From the NCBI RefSeq assembly GCF_002571225.1, contig NZ_NVEC01000001.1, forward strand, positions 46,018 through 110,017: a DNA stretch of 64,000 nt, read 5' to 3'. The position numbers were made by a program, and so were the translations under genes. This DNA comes from Bacillus sp. AFS059628 (GTDB lineage Bacteria > Bacillota > Bacilli > Bacillales > Bacillaceae_G). This document shows positions 43,168 through 64,000 of the stretch, in pieces (positions within the stretch are counted from its first letter, which is position 1; each line of letters starts with the position of its first letter). The notes below the pieces were generated by a model, which worked only from the letters and a program-made list of their open reading frames with translations, had not been told where the DNA came from and made no database searches.

Positions 43168-43827
43168 CTATTCGGTTATTTCTTTATGACTATCTATAAC
43201 TGTTCCTTCTAATGCTTGCGTAGCTAATTGGTGTGCTTCTTTATTTTGTTTTCTAGATATCGGCTCGCACACTAGTTTTAATTTCATTTGTTTCGCCTTT
43301 TGTTCAATTTGATCTAAGTAATGATTTAAATGCTCATCATAGCAAGGCCATTCTCCAGCCAATTGCTGCAGTACAACTTGCGAATCGCCGCGAAGCGTGA
43401 CCGCTTCATACTTAATCCCTAATTCCTCGAGTATATTCATACCGTATAGTAATGATGCATATTCCGCTTCATTATTATCATATATACCTTCTATATATGC
43501 ATTACGGCGAATTCGGTATTGTTTATTCCCTTTTTTATAGTATACACATATACCTACTCCAGCTTCTTTCGTCTGAACATCATACCCCCCATCAAAATAA
43601 ACGTGTACTTCTTGGGGCTCTTCCTCCACTTGTTTACTCAGCTTTTTCATTTCCTTTAGCGACCATTCCGCATCCATTTCATCATAAAATGATAGTTCTT
43701 TCACTCTTCCTGTTTTCTCGAAATCCTCTGCAAATTGCAGTACTTCTTCTATGTTCATATAATCTGTCGTTAATTCCGTCTGCAAACCGCGCTTCGTTTT
43801 ATACAACCAATGAATTTTATATTTCAT
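43168..43827 (-). CDS. RNase H-like protein with N-terminal extension (YpeP-like)
   Basis: The 219 residues comprise a 70-residue N-terminal region and an RNase HI fold with D79 (VYFDGGYD), E122 (NNEAEYASL) and D148 (LRGDSQVV). The fourth acidic residue of the DEDD set is replaced by His (H199 in NKEAHQLA), so activity on RNA-DNA hybrids is doubtful or altered. B. subtilis YpeP has a similar layout. A second, complete RNase H-like gene is at 45590. Confidence 0.85.
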   Translation of the reverse strand: MKYKIHWLYKTKRGLQTELTTDYMNIEEVLQFAEDFEKTGRVKELSFYDEMDAEWSLKEMKKLSKQVEEEPQEVHVYFDGGYDVQTKEAGVGICVYYKKGNKQYRIRRNAYIEGIYDNNEAEYASLLYGMNILEELGIKYEAVTLRGDSQVVLQQLAGEWPCYDEHLNHYLDQIEQKAKQMKLKLVCEPISRKQNKEAHQLATQALEGTVIDSHKEITE

Positions 43828-45589: not shown

Positions 45590-45976
45590 TTGATTGAAGT
45601 ATATATTGATGGTGCATCAAAAGGAAATCCTGGTCCTTCTGGTGCAGGCGTATTTATTAAAGGGGTTCAACCAGCTGTACAATTATCATTACCCCTTGGG
45701 ACAATGTCCAATCATGAAGCAGAATACCACGCTTTACTTGCGGCATTAAAATATTGCATGGAGCATAATTATAACATTGTCTCTTTCCGTACAGATTCGC
45801 AACTTGTCGAGCGGGCTGTTGAAAAAGAATACGCAAAAAATAAAATGTTTGCACCACTATTAGAAGAAGCACTGCAGTACATAAAAAGTTTCGATCTCTT
45901 TTTTATTAAGTGGATTCCAAGTAGTCAAAATAAAGTTGCTGATGAGTTAGCTAGAAAGGCTATCTTACAAAATTAA
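45590..45976 (+). CDS. RNase HI-like ribonuclease (YpdQ-like)
   Basis: A 128-residue RNase H fold with the full DEDD set: D7 (YIDGASKGNPGPSGAG), E45 (NHEAEYHAL), D69 (FRTDSQLVE) and D118 (NKVADELARKA). It lacks the basic handle of E. coli RNase HI, as in Bacillus YpdQ. It begins at a TTG, nine bases after TGGAGG, and lies 7 bases before an EamA transporter gene, so the two are one operon. Confidence 0.9.
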   Translation: MIEVYIDGASKGNPGPSGAGVFIKGVQPAVQLSLPLGTMSNHEAEYHALLAALKYCMEHNYNIVSFRTDSQLVERAVEKEYAKNKMFAPLLEEALQYIKSFDLFFIKWIPSSQNKVADELARKAILQN

Positions 45977-48794: not shown

Positions 48795-48871
48795 AATCCA
48801 TCCCCTTATCTAGACATTTAAATCATTATTATCAAATCAACTTGTACATGTTTCCCTTTATTTGTCACACA

Positions 48872-48880
48872 CATATCCTA
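48872..48880 (+). promoter_or_regulatory. Possible sporulation sigma -10 for the giant repeat gene
   Basis: CATATCCTA fits CATAnnnTA (sigma-K type) 37 bases before the start codon. No clear -35 was found. The nearby TTGACC/TATATT pair is only 5 bases apart and cannot be a vegetative promoter. Confidence 0.35.
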
Positions 48881-48916
48881 TTTTGACCAAGACTATATTG
48901 GAAATGAGGTGACAAC

Positions 48917-51900
48917 ATGCCCATTACGAATCGATTTTCTACCACCACTAACGGCGCACTCGCAATTACTGGAAATACTTTAGGCTTAAGTAAAATTAGT
49001 AATCAAAACCGTGCTGGGACAATCGGGGCAATTGGTGCATTCGCAACTACGAATACCGCTTTACAAGTAACTTCTTTTCCTGCTGGGACAACGTTAAACT
49101 ATACACAAAATAGTTCTACCGCTCTTTTAAATATCCCTGCTGGTAGTACCATTCTTTACGCAGAACTCGTTTGGGGTGGAAACTATTTATCTCGTGATCA
49201 AAACATTACGAGCGTATTAGGAAACCCAGTTTCTTTTACAACACCTGTGTCAACATACTCAATTACTCCTTCAGCTGTTACAGCTTCTAATCAAACATTC
49301 GTTTCAAACTCTATTACATTTGGATTTTACACTCGTTCAGCAGACGTAACGACTCTTATTCAAGCAGGAGGGTCTGGCTCCTATACTACAGGATCTGTAC
49401 CTGGACTTGTTGATCCTTTAGATGCTTCTAATGGATCAATTAACTCGGCTGGATGGACACTTATCGTCGCATATCAAAATGGTTCCTTACCTGCAAGAAA
49501 TTTAACAATTTACGTAGCTGGTAACCGTGTTTCTGCAGAAACTGGTAGTGCCGATGTATCTGTTTCAGGATTTTTAACACCTTCAGGAGGACCTGTAAGC
49601 GGGAGATTGTTTTTAAGTTCTACCGAAGGAGACGCTGATTTAACCGGGGATCAAGCATTATTTGGACCAAATTTCAGTTCATTAAATGCTTTATCTGGGC
49701 CAAATAATGCTGTAAATAATTTCTTCGGTTCTCAAGTGAATAATGCGGCTGGAAATTTAGATACAACCGGGACATTTGGAACACGAAATCAAAGTGCTTC
49801 TACAGGTACAAATATATCTGCAGGGAGGCAAGGTTGGGACATTACTTCTATTGATATTTCTCCTTATTTAACAAATTCTCAAGTGTCCGCCGCAATCCGT
49901 TTAACAACTAACGGAGATGCATATATGTTAAATACAGTCGGATTACAAATTAATATAAACTCGCCTAACATACAAGCAACGAAAAGCGTGAATAAAAGCA
50001 TCGCAGCAATTGGAGATGTTCTCACTTATACCGTTACTATCCCTAATACCGGGCTCCTCCCCGCCAATAACGTTATTTTTATAGACAGTCTTCCTAACGG
50101 CACTTCCTTTATACCTGGCACTGTAACGGTAGATAACGTACCACAAACAAATGCAAACCCGGCTGCTGGTATATCTCTTGGAACAATTAATAACAGTGCT
50201 TCTCGTACAGTAACTTTCCAAGCAACTGTCGTTTCTCTCCCGAATCAAAATCCGATTTCTAACACCGCAAATATTACATTTCAATATACACCAATTGCCG
50301 GTGGAACGACTTTTAACGGTCTTGCAACAAGTAACTCTGCTGGAACACAAATTAATCTTGCAGATATTAATGGTACAAAATCAGTTAACAAACTCTTTAC
50401 CGATATTGGAGAAACGTTAACTTACAATATTGCCTTAGCTAATATAGGAAATATTGCGGCAACGAACGTTATGTATAAGGATCCGATTCCTAGCGGGACT
50501 ACTTTCATTCCAGGAAGTGTAACTGTTAACGGAGTTACGCAAGCTGGCGCAAATCCCGCTACTGGTATAGCAATTGGATCTATTGCTGCTAATTCTACGA
50601 CTACTGTTTCATTTCAAGTACTCGTTCCTTCTATCCCGCAAACAAATCCAATATTAAATAGTGGTACAACAACTTATCAATATATTCCTGTGCCAAATCA
50701 ACCCGCAGTAAGCGGGACTGATATAACTAATACCGTATCCACTCAAGTGAATAATGCTACTGTCACAATGACGAAAGCGGTAGATAAAAATTTTGCAGAT
50801 ATTGGTGATACACTAACGTACACTGTTTCCTTTACAGGTACAGGTAATACGAATGCGAATAACGTTATTTTTACGGATGTCATTCCTACTGGAACAACTT
50901 TTGTTCTCAACAGTTTAACAATAGATGGAACGACACAAGTTGGAGCAAATCCTACTACTGGTGTGAATATAGGATCTATTCCAACTGGCACAACAAAAAA
51001 TGTTTCATTTCAAGTAGTAGTAAATACCATTCCAGCGTCAAATACCGTATCTAATGGATCAAGCGCTTCTTATCAGTACACTGTCAATCCTAGCCAATCT
51101 CCCGTTACAAAAAACATTTCTTCTAATCTCGTTTCAACTCAAATTAACAATGCAAATTTAACAGTAACAAAATCAACAAATAAACAATTTGCTACAATTG
51201 GTGAAACAATCAGTTATACAATTCTTATTACAAACAGTGGAAATACAGCTGCAACTAACGTACAACTAACAGATCCACTTCCAAATGGAACGATATTGAC
51301 TCCTGGTACTGTAACACTAAACGGAGTTTTGCAAAATGTAGATTCTCTCGTTGCTTTACCTATCGGAACAATTCCTAGCGGAGCTACTTTTACTCTTTCT
51401 TTCCAAGTAACAGTCATCAATATTACCGCCCAAAATCCTATCATTAATAATGCATTCACTTCTTACCTATATACTGTAAATCCAAGTGTGCCACCAACTT
51501 CAAAAACAGCAAATTCTAATTCTGTTACATCAACAATTAGACTAGCAAACCTTCAGGCTACTAAGTCTGTAGATAAAACATTTGCAGAAGTTGGAGATGT
51601 TTTAACTTATACCTTCGCTCTTACAAACACTGGAAATGTTGCGGCGAACAATGTAGTACTATCCGATTCAATTGCGAATGGCACTTCCTTTGTACCAAAC
51701 AGTGTCATAGTTAACGGTGTTACTCAGCCGGGTGCTACACCAGCTAGCATTAATATTGGTAGTATCAATGCGAATACTACAATTACAGCTTCATTCCAAG
51801 TATTAATAACTAGCATCCCAAACCCAAATCCTATTTCGAATAATGCCTCCATTTCCTATAACTTTATCATTGATCCAAACGCTTCACCTGTAAATAAGAA

Positions 51901-54900
51901 CACTACTTCCACCACTACATTTACTCAAGTAAACGATGCAAATGTCATTTCAACCAAAGCAGTGGATCGAGCGTTCGCTACCGTAGGGGATATATTAACT
52001 TATACCGTTACTTTGGCGAATGCAGGGAGTGTTTCCGCTGATGGTCCTACTTTCGTTGATACGAATCCAGACGGTACTACCTTTATCCCAAACACTTTCC
52101 TTATTAATGGTGTCCTCCAAAGTAACGCCGATCCAAATGTCGGTGTTCCGTTACCTTCTATTCCTGCTAACGGCTCACTTACTGTCTCTTATCAAGTAAC
52201 TGTCACCTCTTTCCCAACACAAAATCCAACAATAAATTCATCTAGTACACAGTATAGTTTTATTTTGAATCCAGGAGATCCACCAACGATAGAAACCTCT
52301 TTAAGTAACACTGTAAGTACACAAATCAACTTAGCAAATGTCGTTATTGTCAAACAGGTAGATTTAACTATTGCTGATGTTGGGCAACCAATCACATATA
52401 CAATTGCGTTGGCTAACCCTGGGAATACTCCAGCGAATAATGTAGTTGTTACCGACATACTCCCTCCTGGTACGACTCTTGTACCAAATAGTATTTTTAT
52501 AGGCGGTGCTTTACAGCTAGGTGCAGATCCAAGTGCCGGCCTTCAAGTTGGTACGATTCCAGCTGGTGGCATTACAACAATTGTTTTCCAAATTAGTGCA
52601 AATAGTTTACCTTCACAAAATCCAGTTCAAAACAGCGCTGCACTTCAATATAGCTTTATCGCAGATCCAAATTTACCTGCTGTTGTGAGAAATGCTACTA
52701 GCAATATCGTATCGACACAAATTAATACTGCTAATATTGTTGCTACGAAACTAACGAGCACAAATTTCGCTGATATTGGTGATGTCATAACGTATGCAAC
52801 GATTTTAACAAATAGTGGCAATATCCCTGCCTCTAATGTAACGTTTACAGATATTATTCCAGCTGGGACCAACTTCATTCCTAATACTGTAACGATTAAC
52901 GGTGTCCCTATAGCTAATGCAAATCCCGCTAACGGCATTCTTATTGGTACGATAGGAGCGAATTCGTCACGTACTGTTTCATTCCAAGTTTTTGTACCAA
53001 CTATTCCTGCGGTAAATCCAATTACAAATCAATCGAGCACTACTTTCCAATACACATATGACCCATCTAAACCAGCCGTCATGCAGATGATTACTTCTAA
53101 CACTGTACAAACAGCTATTAATAACGCCTCGATTGTCGCTACAAAATCTGCAGATAAACAGTTTGGTAACATAAATGATATTATTACGTACACGACTACT
53201 TTAACGAATAATGGGAACACAATTGCATCAAATATAGTATTTACAGATGCTATTCCAAGCGGGACTTCTTTTATTCCAAATAGTGTAACAGTAAATGGTA
53301 CTACACTCTCTAATGTAAACCCTGCTAATGGTATAGCAATTGATCCGATAAATCCGAATACAAATACAATAATTTCGTTCCAAGTACAAGTAAATTCCAT
53401 CCCGAATCCGAATCCAATCCCTAATCAAAGTAATACCGCTTACCAATATGTCGTAAATCCTAACTTACCTCCAGTATCTTCCAATGCGTTAAGTAACGTA
53501 ATAACAACTCAAATTAACAATGCTACTATTGTCGCTACGAAGTCAGTGAATACACCGAATGCTACAATTGGGGATATCGTTACCTATACGATTGCAGTTA
53601 CAAACACAGGAAATATCCCTGCCAGTGCTACAGTTTTAACAGATGGACTTGGACCTGGTGCATCCTTCATCCCAAATTCCGTTACGATAAATAACGTTTC
53701 CCAACCCGGATTAGATCCTTCCTTAGGTATTCATTTAGACGATATTTCACAAGGAGGCACTACTTTTATTACATTCCAAGTGAAAATCCTCGCTATTCCA
53801 CCTAGTGGCACTTTAACGAATAATGCTCTTGTAAACTACGAATATGCAGTGAATCCAACTGAAACACCAGCTGTTGGTAGTACCGTTACAAACACAACAG
53901 TTACACCGATTATTGATGCTACTCTAGTAATAAATAAAAATGCTAGTACAACTTTCGCTACAATTGGTGATACGATTACATTCACTTCATCTGTTAGAAA
54001 CACAGGAAATACTACTGCTAATAACATTATTTTTACAGATACAATTCCAAATGGTACTGCCTTTGTCCCAAATAGCTTTAAAATAAACGGGGTAACCGTC
54101 CCGAATGCAAATCCACAAAACGGTATCAATATTGGTAACTTGAATACAAATGCATCGATTACACTCAGTTTTCAAGTAAACATTACAACGCTCCCAAACC
54201 CTAATCCAATTCCAAACCAATCATCACTTCAATATAGTTTTATTGTAGATATAAATGAACCGCCTGTTTCACGAACAGTTCAATCCAATACAACTTTTAC
54301 GCAAGTAAATTCGGCTTCCGTTATCGCAACGAAAACTGCAAGCAGTGCCTTTGCCGCTGTTGGAGATACAATTACGTATACAACTACGCTCACTAATAAC
54401 GGAAATACTACTGCTAACACACCCGTTTTTACCGATATATTACCAATTGAACTTTCATTCGTGCCTGATAGTGTACAAATTAATACTATCCCGCAACTTG
54501 GATTTAGACCAGATAACGGGATTTCTTTAGACGCAATTCCGGTTGGAGGAACGACAACAATTAGTTTTCAAGCGATTGTTGGCTCAATACCAACTACAAA
54601 TCCAACTTTGAATCAATCTAGCACGACATATTCTATCATTGTGGATCCTACCAAGCCACCAGTGACAGAAACAGCTACAAGTAATCCAACTTTAGTGCAA
54701 ATTAACGAAGCAATCATCCAATCAACGAAAAGCGTGGATCGACTATATTCTGACATCACACCTGGAAATTCATTTTTAACATATACAGTTTTATTAGAAA
54801 ATATCGGGAACACAACTGCTACGAATATCATTTTTACTGATCCAATTCCAAATAATACAGTATTTATAGAAGATAGCGTTCGAGTAGGTGGGGTTTTATT

Positions 54901-57900
54901 ACCTGGGGTAAATCCAGCAAACGGGATACAAATTGGGGATATTATTGCAGGAGATTTTATAAACGTTACCTTCCGCGTGCAAGTAGTTAGTATCCCAAAT
55001 CCTATTTTTACAATCGGACCTGGAGGACCAAACTCCCCAGTTGTAAACGGCGCTTCTGTTAATTATCAATTTATGACAGCACCTAATTTACCACTTGTTT
55101 CACGAAGCACGACATCTAATTCTGTTTCGACACAAATAAATGTCGGGGAAATCACACTCGTTAAATCTGTAAATAAACCTTTCGCAACAATTGGGGATAC
55201 ACTTTCTTATACAGTTTCATTAAGTAACCCTGGAAATGTCACTTCACAAAATATAATTTTCACGGATATTTTACCTGAAGGAACAACATTTATATCTGGC
55301 ACTCTTGTAAATGATTCTGGTTCGCTGCAAATCGGAAACCCAGCTACCGGAATTCAGATTGGAAATATAAATCCCGGTAGTACAGCTACGATTACGATAA
55401 ACGCACTTGTAACAAACATTCCAAGTATAAATCCAATCTCTAATTCTAGTTCTGTACAATTTCAGCATATTGTCGATCCGAGTCAACCACTTATCACTCA
55501 AACAGCTTCATCTAATACCGTTACTACGACAATAAACAGCGCAATATTAGCTACCACAAAAAGTGCCGATAAATCTATTATTTCTGTCGGAGATACGATT
55601 ACGTATACAACTGCGATTACAAATACAGGAAACACACCCGCAACGAATATTACTTTCACAAGCGCTATTCCATCTAACACTACCTTTATACCAAATTCAG
55701 TCACAATCAATGGTGTTCAGCAACTTGGTGCACGACCAGCACTCGGAGTAACTATACCAAATATCGCTCCTGGTGAAACAGTAACTGTTACTTTCCAAGT
55801 AAATGTTATTTCTGTGCCCCCTTCAAGTTCGATTATGGATAATGACACAATTTTATATTCTTATACTGTTGATCCAAACGGAACTCCTGTTACTACTTCT
55901 ACTTCAACGAATATTGTTACAAACCCCGTACTAGATGCTATAATAACGATGGTAAAATCAGTCGATCAAACACTTGTAACGCTAGGTGATACCATTACCT
56001 ATACAACCATTTTAACGAATAACGGCAATACAAATGCAACGAATATTACTTTCACTGATCTTATACCAGATGGTACAACGTTCGTTCCGAATAGTGTCAC
56101 AATCAATGGCAGTACACAAATCGGACTCAATCCTAATACAGGGATAACAATCGGATCAATTGCCCCTAACAGCTCAATATCTATAGCATTTCAAGTTACC
56201 GCTACTTCTACACCAATCCAAAATCCTATTGCCAATTCCGCTAGTGCGTCTTACACATTTATTGCTGATCCAAATGCACCCATTGTTTCACGAACCGCTT
56301 CTTCAAATACAGTGTTTACTACCATTAATACAGCTACCATTCTTTCATCAAAGCAGGTTGATAAATTATTTAGCCATATCGGAGACACACTCACCTATAC
56401 TGTCACTTTAACAAACAATGGAAACTCATCCGCACAAAATGTTATTTTCTCAGATACAATGCCGAGCGGAACTACATTTCTTACAAACACATTTTCTATT
56501 AATGGAATTCCCCAAATTGGTGCGGATCCATCCAATGGTGTAAATATCGGGACTATAACGGCTGGGAATACGGTAACTGTTGCGTTCCAAGTTACTGTAA
56601 CATCATTACCAACCGAAAACCCAATTGTAAATTTCTCATCGACATCATATCAATTAGTCTCACCGCCTGATCCAGAAACTTCAATTAGTAATCCTGTTTC
56701 AACACAAATTAAAGAAGCTATATTATCTATGACGAAAAACGAAAATACATCCTTTGCAGATATCGGGCAAACTGCTTTTTATACTACTTCTATTTCGAAT
56801 ATAGGAAATACGGATGCGACTAATATTGTATTCACGGATGTATTACCGAGTGGACTCACATTTGTTCCTAACACATTAACTGTTGATGGTGTTTTACAAC
56901 CTGACGCGAATCCAAATACAGGTGTATCGCTTGCAACACTTCCACCCAATGAAATATATAGTATCGTATTTCAAGTCACGGTGAACAGCATCCCACCTAT
57001 TAATCCGGCACCAAATACAGCATCAACGACATATGAGTTTACTGTTGATCCTGTTAACCCTCCCGTTTCAAATACAGCTAATTCTAACACGACGCTTCTT
57101 CAAATAAACAATGCAACTATTAATAGTACAAAAACAGCTAATCTTACTTTTGCGGATATCGGTAATACAATAACATTTACACTTAACCTTGCTAATACAG
57201 GGAATGTGGCTGCAACTGATGTTACCGTTATCGATGTACTCGATAGCAATTTAAATTTCGTTCCAAACAGTTTCACAGTTAATGGGCAAACTATTCCAAA
57301 CGCTGATTTATCTACTGGTGTAAATATCGGTTCAATTAATGGTGGAAGCACATCAATTGTCACATTCCAAGCCATTGTTTCAACCCTACCAAGCAACAAT
57401 CCTATTTCTAATTCAGCTCTTACCACTTACCGTTATGTCGTTGATCCTAGCCAAACACCTATTACAACTTCCAACCAATCTAATACAACGACAACACAGA
57501 TTAATAGCGCTATTCTTACTGCCAAAAAAAATTCAAATGTAGCAACAGTAGATATTGGGCAAGATATTGTCTATTCTATTACGATTACAAATAGCGGAAA
57601 TGCTAGTGCGACGAATGTTACTTTTACCGATTTGATTCCAGACGGAACTTCCTTTGAACCGAATAGTTTTACACTTAACGGAACTACCATCTCAAATGCA
57701 GACCTAATTACAGGCGTTCCAATTGGAGATATCGCGCCAAACCAATCTGTCATCGTAGCATTTCATATTAATGCCGATGAAATTCCGCCTATAAATCCAA
57801 TTACTAATCAAGCTAGCGTTAGTTTCCAACATATCGTCAATCCAGCTAATCCTCCAGTTCCAAAAAACATTACTTCAAATAGTGTTACAACAACAATTGA

Positions 57901-60900
57901 AAGTGCTATTTTAGCTACCACTAAAATTGGAGATAAAGCTTTTGCAACGATTGGTGATACGATTACGTATACAACTACGATTACGAATACAGGAAATATC
58001 CCTGCTAATAACGTTATTTTCTCAGACCCGATACCATCGTGGACACAATTTGTTGCAGGATCAGTTATTGTTGATGGCACTCCATTACCATCCGCTTCTA
58101 TCATTGACGGTATTGGCATAAATACGATCATTCCAAATCAAACTGTAACAATTGTATTCCAAGTTCAAATTGTAAGTAACCCAACAACATTCACTCCTGA
58201 ACTCCAAAACTTAGGATTTGTAAACTTCCAATATAACGTAGGAAATGCATTACAGGCTCAGCCTGGAAATGTGGAAACGAACGTTTTCGTTACTTCTATT
58301 AATTCAGCAATCCTTTCAGCTGTAAAAACTGTTAATACTGCCTTTGCGAATATTGACGATACAATCACTTATACAGTTTTAATTCAAAATAGCGGCAATA
58401 CAAACGCTACGAATGTAAATTTCTCAGACCTGGTTCCAGCAGGAACAACTTTTGTGGAAAATAGTTTTACTGTAAATGGAAGTACCCTTCCAGGTGCAAA
58501 TCCAAATAACGGAGTGAATATCGGAACCGTGAACACCGGTAGTTCCTTAACCGTTACGTTCCAAGTCATAGTTACATCTACTCCACCTTCGAACCCAATT
58601 ACAAACGTTGCATCTATTCAATACGAATTTATAGTTAGTCCGGCTTCTCCTCCTGTTACAGGCACAATAAACTCTAATAGTGCTTCCACACAAATTAATA
58701 ACGCGACTGTTATAACTATTTTAGAAGCAAATCGTACAATCGTATCTACCTTAGATATCATTACGTATACAGCAACATTAACGAATACTGGAAACTTCCC
58801 TGCAAATTCTGTATTACTCATTAACGGAGTTCCTGAAGGGGCATTATTTGTTCCCAATAGTGTCACGCTTAACGGGATTTCACTTCCAGATGCAAGTCCA
58901 ACTCTCGGCATTCCAGTTGGTATTATCGCACCAGGTGATTCTGCTACTATTACGTTCCAATTTCTTGCAAGTTCTATTCCACCGCAAGGAGCAATTATCA
59001 ATCAAGCTATTACAAGTTACACGTATATCGTCAATCCAAGTCAACCACCAGTTACAGCAACATCCTCATCTAATACGGTTACTACAGCTGTCGTTGATGC
59101 ATCGTTATCCGCGATTAAAAGTACAGATTCTCTCGTACAATCTACTGACGGTATAATCACTTACACAGTAGTCGTTCAAAATAACGGAAATACTACTGCA
59201 AATACAGTTACTTTAACAGATTTAGTCCCAGAAGGAACTGCATTTATTCCAAATAGCGTAACCATTAATGGTGTTTCAGCTCCAGGTGCTGACCCAAACG
59301 TAGGGATCTCCTTGAACGCTATTACACCTTCAGAAATCGTCATCGTCACATTCCAAGTTATCGTTCAATCCATTCCAAGCGTGAACCCAATTTCTAATAT
59401 AGCTCGTATTGACTATACTTTTATCGCCGATCCAACTGCTCCTATCATCTCTCGAACCATTACGTCTAATCCAGCTTTCACACAAATTTCGGATGCGAAT
59501 GTTCTTTCTTTAAAAGCAGTTAATGCACAACAAGCAACAACAGGTGATATTTTAACCTATACGATAACGCTAGAAAATACCGGAAATATTCCAGCTACGA
59601 ATCTCATATTTTCCGATACGATTCCAGAAGGAACTACATTCGTAGAAAATAGTTTTACACTTAACGGAACAGCTATACTTGGTGCAAATCCGAATGCAGG
59701 TGTTACTTTGCCTAACCTATCAGCAAACGCTACTCACCTTATTTCATTCCAAATTCTTATTAACGATCCTTTCTCACAACAATCGATTACAAATCAATCT
59801 AATACAATATATACAATTCAACCAGACCCAGGACAACCGCCCATTACTGAAACATCTACAAGTAATATTGTCATTACAAATTTCGTGCTAGCACAATTAA
59901 CAGTTACAAAAACGTCCAATCCAATAACTGTAGATATTGGTGGAACTATACTTTATATTTCTGAAGTAAAAAATATCGGCAATGTTGACGCAATAAATAT
60001 TACTTTTACAGATGCTATTCCAGCTGGGACTACATTCGTTCCAGACAGTGTCACAATTAACGGTGTAATTCAGCCTGGTGTAAGTCCAGAAAACGGAATA
60101 CCAATTGGAACGATTCCACCAAACAGTTCCAAAACAATACTATTTCAAGTACAAACAAATAATCCACCAACTGAAACCGAAATTGTAAATCAATCATCTG
60201 TAAATTACCAATATGTAAGTATTCCTACAGCTCCACCAGTGAATCGCACTGCAAATTCTAATATCGTAACAACATCACTTCAAAATGCAAATATTATTTC
60301 TGTTAAACAGGCGGATGTTACTTTCGTTGCCATCGGGCAAAATATCACTTACACAAATACACTACAAAATATAGGAACTGTTCCAGCTAACAATACGATG
60401 TTCATTGACAACATACCAGAAGGTACTATATTCATTGAAGATAGCTTGTCAATAAATAATGTAATTCAGCCTGGTGCGAACCCTGAAAATGGAGTAACTC
60501 TTGGCACGATACAACCAGATGAAACAGTCACTATTTCATTCCAAGTACAACTTATAAGTATACCAGAGGGCAACACAGTCATTAACATTTCAGACACTTC
60601 GTATGAATACCAAATCGACCCTAGTTCTCCTATTATTCAGCGCAGATCGTTATCAAATGCAGTAAATACTGAAGTGCGGACGGCAAATGTTAGTGCAATT
60701 AAATCCGCTAACAGATCTATTACACGTATCGGTCAAATCATCACATATACAATCGCAGTTACAAACGCTGGTACAGTACCTATTACAAATACTCTCCTCA
60801 TTGACGCAATTGCTGCTGGCACCACATTCGTTCCAAATAGCATTCTTGTAGATGGCATACCAAGGCCTAACGAAAATCCAATTACCGGAATCACCCTTGA

Positions 60901-63900
60901 TATTATCCTTCCAAACAATACAATTATCGTTACATTCCAAGTAAATGTAGTCTCTACACCTTCTCAAAATAACATTAATAATATCGCCGTCATCCACTAT
61001 GAGTATCAGCCAGACCCAAGCTTACCACCAATTTCAGAAACGACATCTTCCAATACTACAAATATACAATTTATTGATGCCATTCTTATCGCTACAAAAT
61101 CCGCTAATACAGTATTAGCAAATATTGATGAAACCATTGAATATACAGTACTCATTCAAAATAACGGATCCACCACAACTAACTCCATCTTTTTTACAGA
61201 TATCATAGAAGATGGAACCGTATTTATTCCGGGAAGTGTAACAGTTAACAACACTGTACTTCCTGCAGCAGATCCAAATATCGGTTTTTCCATTCCTAAT
61301 ATTACTTCAGGTCAATCAACAACAATAACATTCCAAGTTTCCGTTACGAATTTACCTGCTGTAAACCCAACACCTAATACTGCAAACATCGTTTACGACT
61401 TTATTTTCAACCCTGACTTTGCACCTATTCAAAAATCTACTACTTCTAATACTACTTTTGTTCAAATTAATGACGCTGATATTGTTTCACTTAAAACTGT
61501 TGATTTGACCTCTGCAGCAATTGGAGACAATTTAACTTATACAACAACTTTAACGAATACAGGGAATACAGATGCTACTGCTGTTTTATTTACAGACAAT
61601 ATTCCTGATGGAACAGCCTTTATAGATGGTAGCGTTTTAGTAAATAATATCCCTCAGCTTAACGCAAATCCAAGTACTGGCATACTTGTAGGAACGATTG
61701 CTCCTAACACTTCTATCCCAGTCACGTTTTCCGTTACTGTGGTATCTCTTCCAGCTAACAGTCGTATCCAAAACCAAGCTACTTCTCGTTATACAATTAA
61801 TGGCGAGCAACAAATATCAACTAGTAATATTACCTTCACTGAAGTTATTTCTGCTAATGTAATTGCAGCAAAAACAACGCCTATCCAATATGCTGACCTA
61901 CAAACGATTATTCCTTACACAATTTCCATTACAAACAACGGGAATATACAAGTAGAAAATATTATTGTTACAGATATCATTCCAGCGAATACGAGCTTTA
62001 TAGAAAATAGTGTTATTGTAAATGGAAACACCCGTCCAAATGACAATCCACTTAACGGAATACAAATTGATAACATTCCGCCTAATACAACAGCAACTAT
62101 TCTATTCCAAGTACGAGTTACTTCCATTCCGCAAACAAATCCAATCTCTAATACGAGTACAATTGAATACCAATACACTGTACCGAATCGACCACCTATT
62201 ACCGAAACTATTATTTCATCAGCTGCCGTAACAACAATTAATCACGCAAATTTGAATAGTAATAAAGCTGTTGACCTTGCATTTGCAACGGTTGGTGACA
62301 CGTTAACGTATACGATTACACTCAATCAAACTGGTAATATTGCAGCAAATGATGTAGTTATTCAAGATATGATTCCTCAAGGTACTACGTTTATAGAAAA
62401 TAGTGTCATTGTAAACGGCGAAACTCTTCCGGGAGTTAATCCAGTAAGTGGCATACCAATTGGTCCTATAACTGTTGGTGGAAATGCTATTGCTTCATTC
62501 CAAGTAACTGTAACCTCTATTCCAACACTAAATGAACTTACCAACCAAGCAACCACTACCTTTAACTATATAGTCAATCCAAATAACGTACCTGTTACGA
62601 ATACAACTATAACAAATACTGTTACAACTACTGTCCAAAATGATAATGTTTTTGCTATTAAGTCTGCTGATGTAACGCTTGCCTTACCTGGTCAAACTTT
62701 AACATATACAATTACAATTACGAATAGCGGTAATGTCACGATTGAAGATCTTCTTGCTATAGACACCGCACCAGCAGATACAACCTTCGTTACGGACAGC
62801 GTTACAGTTAACGGAATCAATCAACCTAATGCAAATCCTGAAAATGGTATTACATTAGGAAACCTTGCTCCTAATGAATCTACTATCATTACTTTCCAAG
62901 TAACAATATCTCCTTCAACTCTTCAACCAGCAATTAATAACGATGCTTCTGTTTCCTATACTGTTACCATTGATCCAAATGAACCACCTATTACAATTAC
63001 AAAGCAAACAAATGTCGTTACAACAACTGTAGTTGACCCGATGGTTAGCATTGAAAAAACAGCCGATAAATCTATTGTGGCGTCAGGCGACACCATAACT
63101 TTCACATTAGAAGTGATAAATCATTCACCAATTCCTACAATTAGTACCTCTGTCCTAGATATAATTCCAGCTAGTACAACATTTATAGAAAATAGCGTAA
63201 CCATTAACGGAACCCCGGTTCCAAATGTCCGTCCAGATACTGGTATTAATATCGGCACTTTATCTGCTGGCTCAGTAGCAACGATAACCTTTAAAGTTCT
63301 CGTCACGTCTATCCCTTCAAACAGTACCATTATCAATTCCGCTTCCGTCACAGCTGCCTTCCAATTGACACCACAGGACCCAATTATTACTTTTATAGTT
63401 AATTCAAATATCGTTCGTATACCAGTACAATTTATAACTGCGACAGTAGTAAAAAACGCTTCCGTCAGCTCAGCTTATTTAAACCAATATTTTGATTATA
63501 CGGTGCGTATTACGAATACTTCTGATATTTCACTTTCAAATATTTCGTTACAAGATACCATTCCAGCAGGTTTACAATTTATGAACGGTACGGTTTTTAT
63601 TAATGACGAACGTTCTCCACTAGCGAATCCGAATATCGGTTTCCTAGTTGCTACTAATTTGGAACCGAACGAAACAATTATCGTGTTATTCACAGTACAA
63701 GTAATAAGTCCACCTGTTAATAATGAATTTAAAAATACAACTAATATTTCGTTACAACTTCAAGTCTCGCCTACCGACCCACCAATTACAGTAACCGTTA
63801 CGAGTAACGAAAATATGGTCACCTTCGTTCCAGAAAATCCAGATGAAACACTTCCAAATTTTAATTGCTTCTTTGACGGGAAACGCTTCATACGTATTAC

Positions 63901-63949
63901 TCCTCGAAATGTACGAAATTACCTTTGGACTTGGATTTGGTGGGATTAA
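48917..63949 (+). CDS. Giant DUF11/B_ant_repeat surface-type protein (5,010 aa)
   Basis: One uninterrupted frame of 5,010 codons (about 510 kDa). Residues 1-351 are a Thr/Ser/Asn/Gly-rich beta domain (STILYAELVWGGNYLSRD; SAGWTLIVAYQNGSLPARNL) found before DUF11 repeats. Then come 35 tandem repeats of about 132 residues (352 to about 4972), of the kind TIGR01451 describes in three of the longest B. anthracis proteins. The last 30 residues are aromatic and basic (NCFFDGKRFIRI...LWTWIWWD). There is no signal peptide, LPXTG or transmembrane anchor. It probably builds a long fibrous structure, perhaps on spores; location and function are inference. GAGGTGAC stands before the ATG. Repeat 13 carries a 13-residue insertion. 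Confidence 0.93.
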   Translation: MPITNRFSTTTNGALAITGNTLGLSKISNQNRAGTIGAIGAFATTNTALQVTSFPAGTTLNYTQNSSTALLNIPAGSTILYAELVWGGNYLSRDQNITSVLGNPVSFTTPVSTYSITPSAVTASNQTFVSNSITFGFYTRSADVTTLIQAGGSGSYTTGSVPGLVDPLDASNGSINSAGWTLIVAYQNGSLPARNLTIYVAGNRVSAETGSADVSVSGFLTPSGGPVSGRLFLSSTEGDADLTGDQALFGPNFSSLNALSGPNNAVNNFFGSQVNNAAGNLDTTGTFGTRNQSASTGTNISAGRQGWDITSIDISPYLTNSQVSAAIRLTTNGDAYMLNTVGLQININSPNIQATKSVNKSIAAIGDVLTYTVTIPNTGLLPANNVIFIDSLPNGTSFIPGTVTVDNVPQTNANPAAGISLGTINNSASRTVTFQATVVSLPNQNPISNTANITFQYTPIAGGTTFNGLATSNSAGTQINLADINGTKSVNKLFTDIGETLTYNIALANIGNIAATNVMYKDPIPSGTTFIPGSVTVNGVTQAGANPATGIAIGSIAANSTTTVSFQVLVPSIPQTNPILNSGTTTYQYIPVPNQPAVSGTDITNTVSTQVNNATVTMTKAVDKNFADIGDTLTYTVSFTGTGNTNANNVIFTDVIPTGTTFVLNSLTIDGTTQVGANPTTGVNIGSIPTGTTKNVSFQVVVNTIPASNTVSNGSSASYQYTVNPSQSPVTKNISSNLVSTQINNANLTVTKSTNKQFATIGETISYTILITNSGNTAATNVQLTDPLPNGTILTPGTVTLNGVLQNVDSLVALPIGTIPSGATFTLSFQVTVINITAQNPIINNAFTSYLYTVNPSVPPTSKTANSNSVTSTIRLANLQATKSVDKTFAEVGDVLTYTFALTNTGNVAANNVVLSDSIANGTSFVPNSVIVNGVTQPGATPASINIGSINANTTITASFQVLITSIPNPNPISNNASISYNFIIDPNASPVNKNTTSTTTFTQVNDANVISTKAVDRAFATVGDILTYTVTLANAGSVSADGPTFVDTNPDGTTFIPNTFLINGVLQSNADPNVGVPLPSIPANGSLTVSYQVTVTSFPTQNPTINSSSTQYSFILNPGDPPTIETSLSNTVSTQINLANVVIVKQVDLTIADVGQPITYTIALANPGNTPANNVVVTDILPPGTTLVPNSIFIGGALQLGADPSAGLQVGTIPAGGITTIVFQISANSLPSQNPVQNSAALQYSFIADPNLPAVVRNATSNIVSTQINTANIVATKLTSTNFADIGDVITYATILTNSGNIPASNVTFTDIIPAGTNFIPNTVTINGVPIANANPANGILIGTIGANSSRTVSFQVFVPTIPAVNPITNQSSTTFQYTYDPSKPAVMQMITSNTVQTAINNASIVATKSADKQFGNINDIITYTTTLTNNGNTIASNIVFTDAIPSGTSFIPNSVTVNGTTLSNVNPANGIAIDPINPNTNTIISFQVQVNSIPNPNPIPNQSNTAYQYVVNPNLPPVSSNALSNVITTQINNATIVATKSVNTPNATIGDIVTYTIAVTNTGNIPASATVLTDGLGPGASFIPNSVTINNVSQPGLDPSLGIHLDDISQGGTTFITFQVKILAIPPSGTLTNNALVNYEYAVNPTETPAVGSTVTNTTVTPIIDATLVINKNASTTFATIGDTITFTSSVRNTGNTTANNIIFTDTIPNGTAFVPNSFKINGVTVPNANPQNGINIGNLNTNASITLSFQVNITTLPNPNPIPNQSSLQYSFIVDINEPPVSRTVQSNTTFTQVNSASVIATKTASSAFAAVGDTITYTTTLTNNGNTTANTPVFTDILPIELSFVPDSVQINTIPQLGFRPDNGISLDAIPVGGTTTISFQAIVGSIPTTNPTLNQSSTTYSIIVDPTKPPVTETATSNPTLVQINEAIIQSTKSVDRLYSDITPGNSFLTYTVLLENIGNTTATNIIFTDPIPNNTVFIEDSVRVGGVLLPGVNPANGIQIGDIIAGDFINVTFRVQVVSIPNPIFTIGPGGPNSPVVNGASVNYQFMTAPNLPLVSRSTTSNSVSTQINVGEITLVKSVNKPFATIGDTLSYTVSLSNPGNVTSQNIIFTDILPEGTTFISGTLVNDSGSLQIGNPATGIQIGNINPGSTATITINALVTNIPSINPISNSSSVQFQHIVDPSQPLITQTASSNTVTTTINSAILATTKSADKSIISVGDTITYTTAITNTGNTPATNITFTSAIPSNTTFIPNSVTINGVQQLGARPALGVTIPNIAPGETVTVTFQVNVISVPPSSSIMDNDTILYSYTVDPNGTPVTTSTSTNIVTNPVLDAIITMVKSVDQTLVTLGDTITYTTILTNNGNTNATNITFTDLIPDGTTFVPNSVTINGSTQIGLNPNTGITIGSIAPNSSISIAFQVTATSTPIQNPIANSASASYTFIADPNAPIVSRTASSNTVFTTINTATILSSKQVDKLFSHIGDTLTYTVTLTNNGNSSAQNVIFSDTMPSGTTFLTNTFSINGIPQIGADPSNGVNIGTITAGNTVTVAFQVTVTSLPTENPIVNFSSTSYQLVSPPDPETSISNPVSTQIKEAILSMTKNENTSFADIGQTAFYTTSISNIGNTDATNIVFTDVLPSGLTFVPNTLTVDGVLQPDANPNTGVSLATLPPNEIYSIVFQVTVNSIPPINPAPNTASTTYEFTVDPVNPPVSNTANSNTTLLQINNATINSTKTANLTFADIGNTITFTLNLANTGNVAATDVTVIDVLDSNLNFVPNSFTVNGQTIPNADLSTGVNIGSINGGSTSIVTFQAIVSTLPSNNPISNSALTTYRYVVDPSQTPITTSNQSNTTTTQINSAILTAKKNSNVATVDIGQDIVYSITITNSGNASATNVTFTDLIPDGTSFEPNSFTLNGTTISNADLITGVPIGDIAPNQSVIVAFHINADEIPPINPITNQASVSFQHIVNPANPPVPKNITSNSVTTTIESAILATTKIGDKAFATIGDTITYTTTITNTGNIPANNVIFSDPIPSWTQFVAGSVIVDGTPLPSASIIDGIGINTIIPNQTVTIVFQVQIVSNPTTFTPELQNLGFVNFQYNVGNALQAQPGNVETNVFVTSINSAILSAVKTVNTAFANIDDTITYTVLIQNSGNTNATNVNFSDLVPAGTTFVENSFTVNGSTLPGANPNNGVNIGTVNTGSSLTVTFQVIVTSTPPSNPITNVASIQYEFIVSPASPPVTGTINSNSASTQINNATVITILEANRTIVSTLDIITYTATLTNTGNFPANSVLLINGVPEGALFVPNSVTLNGISLPDASPTLGIPVGIIAPGDSATITFQFLASSIPPQGAIINQAITSYTYIVNPSQPPVTATSSSNTVTTAVVDASLSAIKSTDSLVQSTDGIITYTVVVQNNGNTTANTVTLTDLVPEGTAFIPNSVTINGVSAPGADPNVGISLNAITPSEIVIVTFQVIVQSIPSVNPISNIARIDYTFIADPTAPIISRTITSNPAFTQISDANVLSLKAVNAQQATTGDILTYTITLENTGNIPATNLIFSDTIPEGTTFVENSFTLNGTAILGANPNAGVTLPNLSANATHLISFQILINDPFSQQSITNQSNTIYTIQPDPGQPPITETSTSNIVITNFVLAQLTVTKTSNPITVDIGGTILYISEVKNIGNVDAINITFTDAIPAGTTFVPDSVTINGVIQPGVSPENGIPIGTIPPNSSKTILFQVQTNNPPTETEIVNQSSVNYQYVSIPTAPPVNRTANSNIVTTSLQNANIISVKQADVTFVAIGQNITYTNTLQNIGTVPANNTMFIDNIPEGTIFIEDSLSINNVIQPGANPENGVTLGTIQPDETVTISFQVQLISIPEGNTVINISDTSYEYQIDPSSPIIQRRSLSNAVNTEVRTANVSAIKSANRSITRIGQIITYTIAVTNAGTVPITNTLLIDAIAAGTTFVPNSILVDGIPRPNENPITGITLDIILPNNTIIVTFQVNVVSTPSQNNINNIAVIHYEYQPDPSLPPISETTSSNTTNIQFIDAILIATKSANTVLANIDETIEYTVLIQNNGSTTTNSIFFTDIIEDGTVFIPGSVTVNNTVLPAADPNIGFSIPNITSGQSTTITFQVSVTNLPAVNPTPNTANIVYDFIFNPDFAPIQKSTTSNTTFVQINDADIVSLKTVDLTSAAIGDNLTYTTTLTNTGNTDATAVLFTDNIPDGTAFIDGSVLVNNIPQLNANPSTGILVGTIAPNTSIPVTFSVTVVSLPANSRIQNQATSRYTINGEQQISTSNITFTEVISANVIAAKTTPIQYADLQTIIPYTISITNNGNIQVENIIVTDIIPANTSFIENSVIVNGNTRPNDNPLNGIQIDNIPPNTTATILFQVRVTSIPQTNPISNTSTIEYQYTVPNRPPITETIISSAAVTTINHANLNSNKAVDLAFATVGDTLTYTITLNQTGNIAANDVVIQDMIPQGTTFIENSVIVNGETLPGVNPVSGIPIGPITVGGNAIASFQVTVTSIPTLNELTNQATTTFNYIVNPNNVPVTNTTITNTVTTTVQNDNVFAIKSADVTLALPGQTLTYTITITNSGNVTIEDLLAIDTAPADTTFVTDSVTVNGINQPNANPENGITLGNLAPNESTIITFQVTISPSTLQPAINNDASVSYTVTIDPNEPPITITKQTNVVTTTVVDPMVSIEKTADKSIVASGDTITFTLEVINHSPIPTISTSVLDIIPASTTFIENSVTINGTPVPNVRPDTGINIGTLSAGSVATITFKVLVTSIPSNSTIINSASVTAAFQLTPQDPIITFIVNSNIVRIPVQFITATVVKNASVSSAYLNQYFDYTVRITNTSDISLSNISLQDTIPAGLQFMNGTVFINDERSPLANPNIGFLVATNLEPNETIIVLFTVQVISPPVNNEFKNTTNISLQLQVSPTDPPITVTVTSNENMVTFVPENPDETLPNFNCFFDGKRFIRITPRNVRNYLWTWIWWD
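49970..63832 (+). repeat. Array of 35 coding repeats of about 396 bp
   Basis: Repeat 1 begins at 49970 (IQATKS) and repeat 35 at 63434, exactly 34 x 396 bp apart although single units vary between 128 and 145 codons. The unit consensus is (L/I)xATKSxDKxFAxIGD, xxTYTxxLTNTGN, FTDxIPxGTTFVPNSVTxNG, SFQVxVxSIPxxNPIxN, DPxxPPVxxxxxSNxVxTxIN. Units are clearly diverged in DNA, so they are old copies rather than recent amplification. Selected starts: R5 51551, R13 54716, R15 55547, R23 58709, R31 61859. Confidence 0.9.
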
Positions 63950-63958
63950 ATGAAACAA

Positions 63959-64000
63959 AAAGAGATTGTAATTTGGTTGAAACCAAATTACAATCTCTTT
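63959..64000 (+). terminator. Terminator after the giant gene (reaches the window edge)
   Basis: A 20-bp perfect stem (arms 63959-63978 and 63981-64000) follows the stop by 9 bases; the expected T run would lie at and beyond the edge. Confidence 0.85.

Follow-up and report, generated by a model that had tools for sequence, protein, structure and literature searches.

The domain DUF11 was renamed CLIPPER in a 2025 survey, where it is described as a CnaA-like domain (PMC12617251). In the crystal structure of a CLIPPER domain of Acinetobacter silvestris (PDB 9IFR) an isopeptide bond joins Lys715 to Asn806 beside Asp748, which is putatively catalytic. The crystallised construct, residues 708-828, forms the bond, and a K715A variant unfolds near 45°C as against 80°C and is less resistant to proteinase K (PMC12617251). 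Here we describe a gene encoding a very long array of such domains. It is the last gene of the window, a stretch of 64,000 nucleotides from Bacillus sp. AFS059628, a bacterium related to Priestia. The gene (48917-63949, + strand) starts with ATG, stays open throughout and specifies a protein of 5010 amino acids. A protein of this size fell outside the survey, since entries of AlphaFold DB of up to 1280 residues were taken (PMC12617251).

The array of CLIPPER beads

The protein consists of an N-terminal domain (aa 1-349; 48917..49963, + strand), which is leaderless and gave no match in profile scans against Pfam and NCBIfam, 35 tandem beads (aa 350-4971; 49964..63829, + strand) and a C-terminal tail of 39 residues (aa 4972-5010; 63830..63949 including the stop codon, + strand). 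The only cysteine of the protein, residue 4984, lies in this tail. A profile built from 25 of the repeats located 35 units between residue 350 and about 4971, the weakest domain with an E-value of 9.1e-24; the units are 126-145 residues long, mostly 132. Every one of the 35 beads matched DUF11 (PF01345) at E ≤ 0.001, and TIGR01451 scored above its cut-off in both stretches tested. An AlphaFold2 model of two beads (R08-R09) was all-beta with a predicted local distance difference test score (pLDDT) of 97.4. Its structure matches include domains of BcpA and antigen I/II, 9IFR being absent among the matches listed; this all-beta fold is common also to domains without an isopeptide bond. At the sequence level 9IFR was the sole match of the bead profile in PDB (E 1.7e-5).

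The closest relative found belongs to Priestia taiwanensis (genome G001) and is 89% identical across the N-terminal 358 residues. This homologue has 6170 residues and 44 repeats, and the two C-terminal tails are 38% identical. Beads R1-R30 align with those of P. taiwanensis free of gaps at 65-86% identity, which argues that the array is old and that each bead has been retained as such and not overwritten by its neighbours. The additional beads of P. taiwanensis come after R31 and ahead of the final two. A search for a plasmid copy of the window neighbourhood gave no match.

The probable asparagine partner of the conserved lysine

The preliminary description of this sequence had picked out a Lys-Asp-Asn triad in the repeats, with the Asn taken from an (S/T)N motif, and had proposed CnaA/CnaB-type isopeptide beads. 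Its counts were exact. If position 1 of the unit is set six residues ahead of the Lys, K7 is conserved in 34 of the 35 beads, D41 in 33 and N124 of (S/T)N in 33, and all three occur together in 31. K7 alone accounts for 34 of the 65 lysines of the whole protein. However, eleven bead columns are at least 90% conserved and three of these are Asn; N28 (33/35) and N100 (34/35), as conserved as N124, had gone unmentioned. Because the three columns are so similar, conservation alone does not single out the partner. Picking triads by conservation is a general trap, the Asn chosen first having been one of three equally conserved.

Comparison with 9IFR points to N100. Profile alignments place K7 on Lys715 and D41 on Asp748, and a broader profile, whose alignment reaches past Asn806, pairs this residue with N100 (E 5.2e-8). 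In 9IFR the Asp lies at +33 and the Asn at +91 from the Lys, the Asn being at +58 from the Asp. The corresponding distances in the window beads are +34 for D41 and +93 for N100 from K7, and +59 from D41 to N100. N124 is at +117 from K7 and +83 from D41; its equivalent by spacing would be residue 830, past the end (828) of the construct that forms the bond. N28 was rejected as the bond Asn, the aligned residue in 9IFR being Val.

A second line of evidence comes from the joint loss of residues in 120 domains. K7 and D41 were lost together seven times and each alone once (p=2.4e-9). Loss of N100 was linked to losses of K7 (p=0.015) and of D41 (p=0.0096), while loss of N124 never coincided with that of K7, D41 or N100. 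Since lineage effects might produce such co-loss, losses were also reshuffled inside each protein, over 145 domains from 21 reading frames. Co-loss of K7 and D41 remained (p=5e-5), D41-N100 gave p=0.036 and K7-N100 p=0.068, and N124 showed 0 co-losses against 0.5-0.8 expected. Two control pairs, G30-G69 and G69-P93, were linked across the 120 domains (p=2e-7 and 1e-8) and gave p=0.65 and 0.30 within proteins. Both tests exclude the 44 P. taiwanensis domains, which are near-copies of the window beads, and that on 120 domains also excludes the 25 of a further genome (G005); gapped cells were set aside. The domains collected were those at E 1e-4 or stronger, which may favour complete sets, and the losses shared by loci L046 and L047 are not independent because their proteins are related. 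An alignment of 8 of the 35 window beads with 25 of the 81 other domains, selected by locus, shows no variation at D41 or N100; this invariance is partly a product of the selection, as some omitted domains (e.g. that of L056 and one of L052) are without N100. Some domains have Asp in place of N100 and retain K7 and D41 (e.g. L046/492-617), and these could still make a Lys-Asp bond. The co-loss of K7 and D41 is thus a strong result, and the link of N100 to the two is suggestive.

Spacing, the 9IFR alignment, the end of the construct at 828 and the losses agree, and N100 is favoured as the partner: a K7-N100 isopeptide bond would very probably form in most beads. The set of K7, D41 and N100 is complete in 33 of the 35 beads, in place of the roughly 31 bonded beads proposed before; elsewhere it is complete in 42 of the 44 P. 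taiwanensis domains and in 20 of 25 in G005. In R08, the first bead of the modelled pair (52730..53125, + strand; unit start at residue 1272), K7 is Lys1278, D41 Asp1312, N100 Asn1371 and N124 Asn1395. The incomplete beads are R15 (55541..55936, + strand), where the bead alignment shows D41 replaced by Ser and N100 by Asp, and R23 (58703..59098, + strand), where K7 is replaced by Leu and D41 by Asn. The P. taiwanensis bead aligned to R15 has Ser at 41 and Gly at 100, and that aligned to R23 carries the identical two changes.

It might be argued that the beads form no bond and that K7, D41 and N100 are conserved merely to serve a salt bridge, hydrogen bonding or the fold. Many DUF11 domains are described as folding without the set (PMC12617251), and other bead columns are equally conserved. 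However, the bond of 9IFR is made by residues at the same places (PMC12617251), the co-loss of K7 and D41 is far above the level otherwise shown by the 16 pairs tested, and N100 is mostly Asn, though a salt bridge would call for no such acceptor; we consider this explanation improbable. A bond from K7 to N124 with D41 as the catalyst, the pairing of the preliminary description, is very unlikely: N124 is well conserved (also in 52 of 58 ungapped domains in other loci) and classic CnaA/CnaB domains have a late Asn, but spacing and alignment favour N100, N124 is retained in beads that have lost K7 and D41, DUF11 domains of L050-L052 that end ahead of its position mostly keep the Lys, Asp and N100, and the two-bead model puts it between two strands and not, as had been supposed, on the last strand, N100 standing at the end of a short strand.

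The proposal of isopeptide-locked beads is therefore supported by the sequence, with the beads as members of a known, CnaA-like family in which the bond has been solved; it is the choice of Asn that had to be corrected. In kind the protein is ordinary, a new giant array of a known isopeptide domain. In the proposed mechanism D41 would be the catalytic acid in each of 33 beads, joining K7 of the first strand to N100 of a late strand by an internal bond, and the 33 bonds would lower the mass by about 33 x 17 Da. N124 would probably be structural. Such beads would let the chain withstand heat, proteases and pulling forces. A single chain with about 33 covalent locks would, provided that the bonds form, be natural material for asking how covalent beads sum in strength, and R15 and R23, which lack the set, would be built-in controls.

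The N-terminal domain and a possible spore location

The N-terminal domain has 40 invariant positions across 23 homologues, and a PDB sequence search with these homologues gave no match at E ≤ 5. DUF3344 (PF11824) did not match the window domain at E ≤ 5; a Thermus homologue scored 30.7 against a cut-off of 27.2. A PHROGs search returned only weak matches to unknown families, and the viral contigs searched gave no match. Two Enterococcus records of a phage collection (OR846592.1 and PQ520000.1) code for a distantly related domain of 26-28% identity. An AlphaFold2 model computed from three sequences had a pLDDT of 35.3 and was not used. Among the genomes sampled, 16 of 299 from the order and 5 of 398 from the phylum have the domain (P. 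taiwanensis being counted in both); it is also present on 35 plasmid records, chiefly of Priestia and Thermus, and in one metagenome-assembled genome of Myxococcales.

Proteins with this domain fall into two sizes. The long class, with open frames of at least 2244 residues, numbers 14 copies from 11 genomes; the short class, of 480-555 residues, numbers 12 copies from 9 genomes, most of them with a Cys-rich end. Some long copies carry a different stalk. On the Priestia megaterium plasmid p2_GEB3 the domain is part of a 14.9-kb gene annotated as a tandem-95 repeat protein, with no DUF11 in the part examined: one and the same cap, borne on a stalk of a different type. In genome G493 a single 38-kb stretch (C1:2408879-2446579) holds four long genes with frames of 3404-5227 residues.

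No secretion leader was found in any of the 30 Bacillota copies, including that of the window, by a hydrophobicity test (not SignalP) on the first 35 residues with starts picked by their likeness to ribosome sites; the highest value, 2.07 in genome G041, was borderline. The Thermus (3.26) and Myxococcales (2.78) copies have a leader directly ahead of the domain. By eye, the C-termini of the window protein and its homologues in P. taiwanensis and G005 showed no LPXTG-type motif or membrane tail.

Short genes made up of the N-terminal domain, one DUF11 and a Cys-rich tail adjoin genes for endospore appendages (Ena; PF13157) on one plasmid (L061:10077-13366) and in genomes G439, G476, G534, G535 and G592. 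Five of the 12 short copies, one in each of these genomes, are at most 260 bases away from a PF13157 match; of the remaining seven, three are in genomes without an Ena match, three are in G476 and G534 at a distance from Ena and one is at a contig end. On the P. megaterium plasmid pPmC-142-6 a short copy stands beside three annotated S-Ena genes. The short genes are possibly an unrecognised part of endospore-appendage clusters. None of the 14 long copies was near an Ena match, and no Ena domain was found in the ten open reading frames upstream of the window gene; downstream the window ends 51 bases after it. A literature search for DUF11 or the N-terminal domain in connection with S-ENA found none. 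'Sporesilk', as cited in PMC12617251, has an alpha-helical intermolecular bond and was set aside as a different thing.

A surface protein without a leader is in keeping with the mother-cell route by which spore formers build their coats. Because a secretion leader is absent and short paralogues lie beside Ena genes, we infer that the protein would be made in the mother cell and then placed on the spore surface, and a spore location is on balance the better reading. The alternative, an ordinary fibrillar adhesin secreted by vegetative cells and attached to their wall, has in its favour that the DUF11 arrays of the survey are mostly stalks of fibrillar adhesins (PMC12617251) and that the Thermus copy has a leader; against it stand the missing leaders in Bacillota and the C-termini without an anchor, and we hold it to be doubtful. 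Overall the protein is probably a rigid and very long surface stalk, in which 35 CLIPPER beads, 33 of them predicted to be bonded, follow the N-terminal domain. More tentatively still, the N-terminal domain might define a family of leaderless spore-surface fibres, in which short members with one CLIPPER bead and a Cys-rich tail, encoded in Ena clusters, cap or couple the fibre and long members form self-standing or fibre-tip threads of 35-44 locked beads.

GAGGTGA (48906..48912, + strand), four bases ahead of the ATG at 48917, is a probable ribosome-binding site. At -45 from the ATG the word CATATCCTA (48872..48880, + strand) resembles the -10 element of late mother-cell (sigma-K) promoters, which is weak evidence; its P. 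taiwanensis counterpart is CATATGCTA, also at -45, and DNA similarity between the two starts at 48871, with none upstream of that point. No AC-type -35 lies at the usual spacing. Across the window the -10-like pattern shows no enrichment (40 observed, 58.9 expected) and is by itself uninformative, so the call of a sigma-K promoter was dropped. Right after the stop codon a terminator-like inverted repeat of 19 pairs (63959..64000) was called on the - strand; one was found against 0.1 expected in shuffles, and the window stops before any + strand tail. Upstream of the gene are two RNase H-like genes (RVT_3 and RNase_H; 43168-43827, - strand, and 45590-45976, + strand), less than 3 kb apart on opposite strands.

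Comparison with known isopeptide and spore proteins

The window beads share with the CLIPPER domain of 9IFR the family, the places of Lys, Asp and Asn, the CnaA-like sandwich and the arrangement as a tandem stalk. The A. silvestris protein is described as having a signal peptide and an OmpA-like anchor, whereas the window protein has neither. A CLIPPER profile also matched residues 985-1114 of the Aureispira grappling hook protein A (GhpA; PDB 9flp) with an E-value of 1.2e-8, and Lys, Asp and Asn are present there at the aligned places. The XNA domain of the pilin BcpA from Bacillus cereus (3kpt, 3rkp), which has a bonded Lys and Asn, belongs to a sortase-built pilus subunit, unlike the window protein.

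What is novel is the setting, a leaderless N-terminal-domain family that its gene neighbourhoods appear to tie, through the short members, to endospore appendages. DUF11 repeats are likewise reported in the spore or appendage proteins CrdA-C of the B. cereus group, CRD1/CRD2 of Clostridium taeniosporum (PMC5749712) and F-Anchor-3 of C. aceticum (PMC11952670), but these are described with few repeats and other partner domains; the comparison covers the DUF11 repeats. For the tip fibrillae of S-ENA, the genes are reported as yet to be identified (PMC12921279). If the reading as a leaderless fibre family is true, the window protein would be a candidate for such a fibrilla, at least in Priestia and its relatives, with a non-collagen design. 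The tip fibrillae L-BclA and F-BclA of endospore appendages are, like the proposed stalk, long and thin and borne on spores, but they are collagen-like where the window stalk is CLIPPER. Should the spore location hold, CLIPPER threads would stand alongside the collagen-like ones already described on spore appendages.
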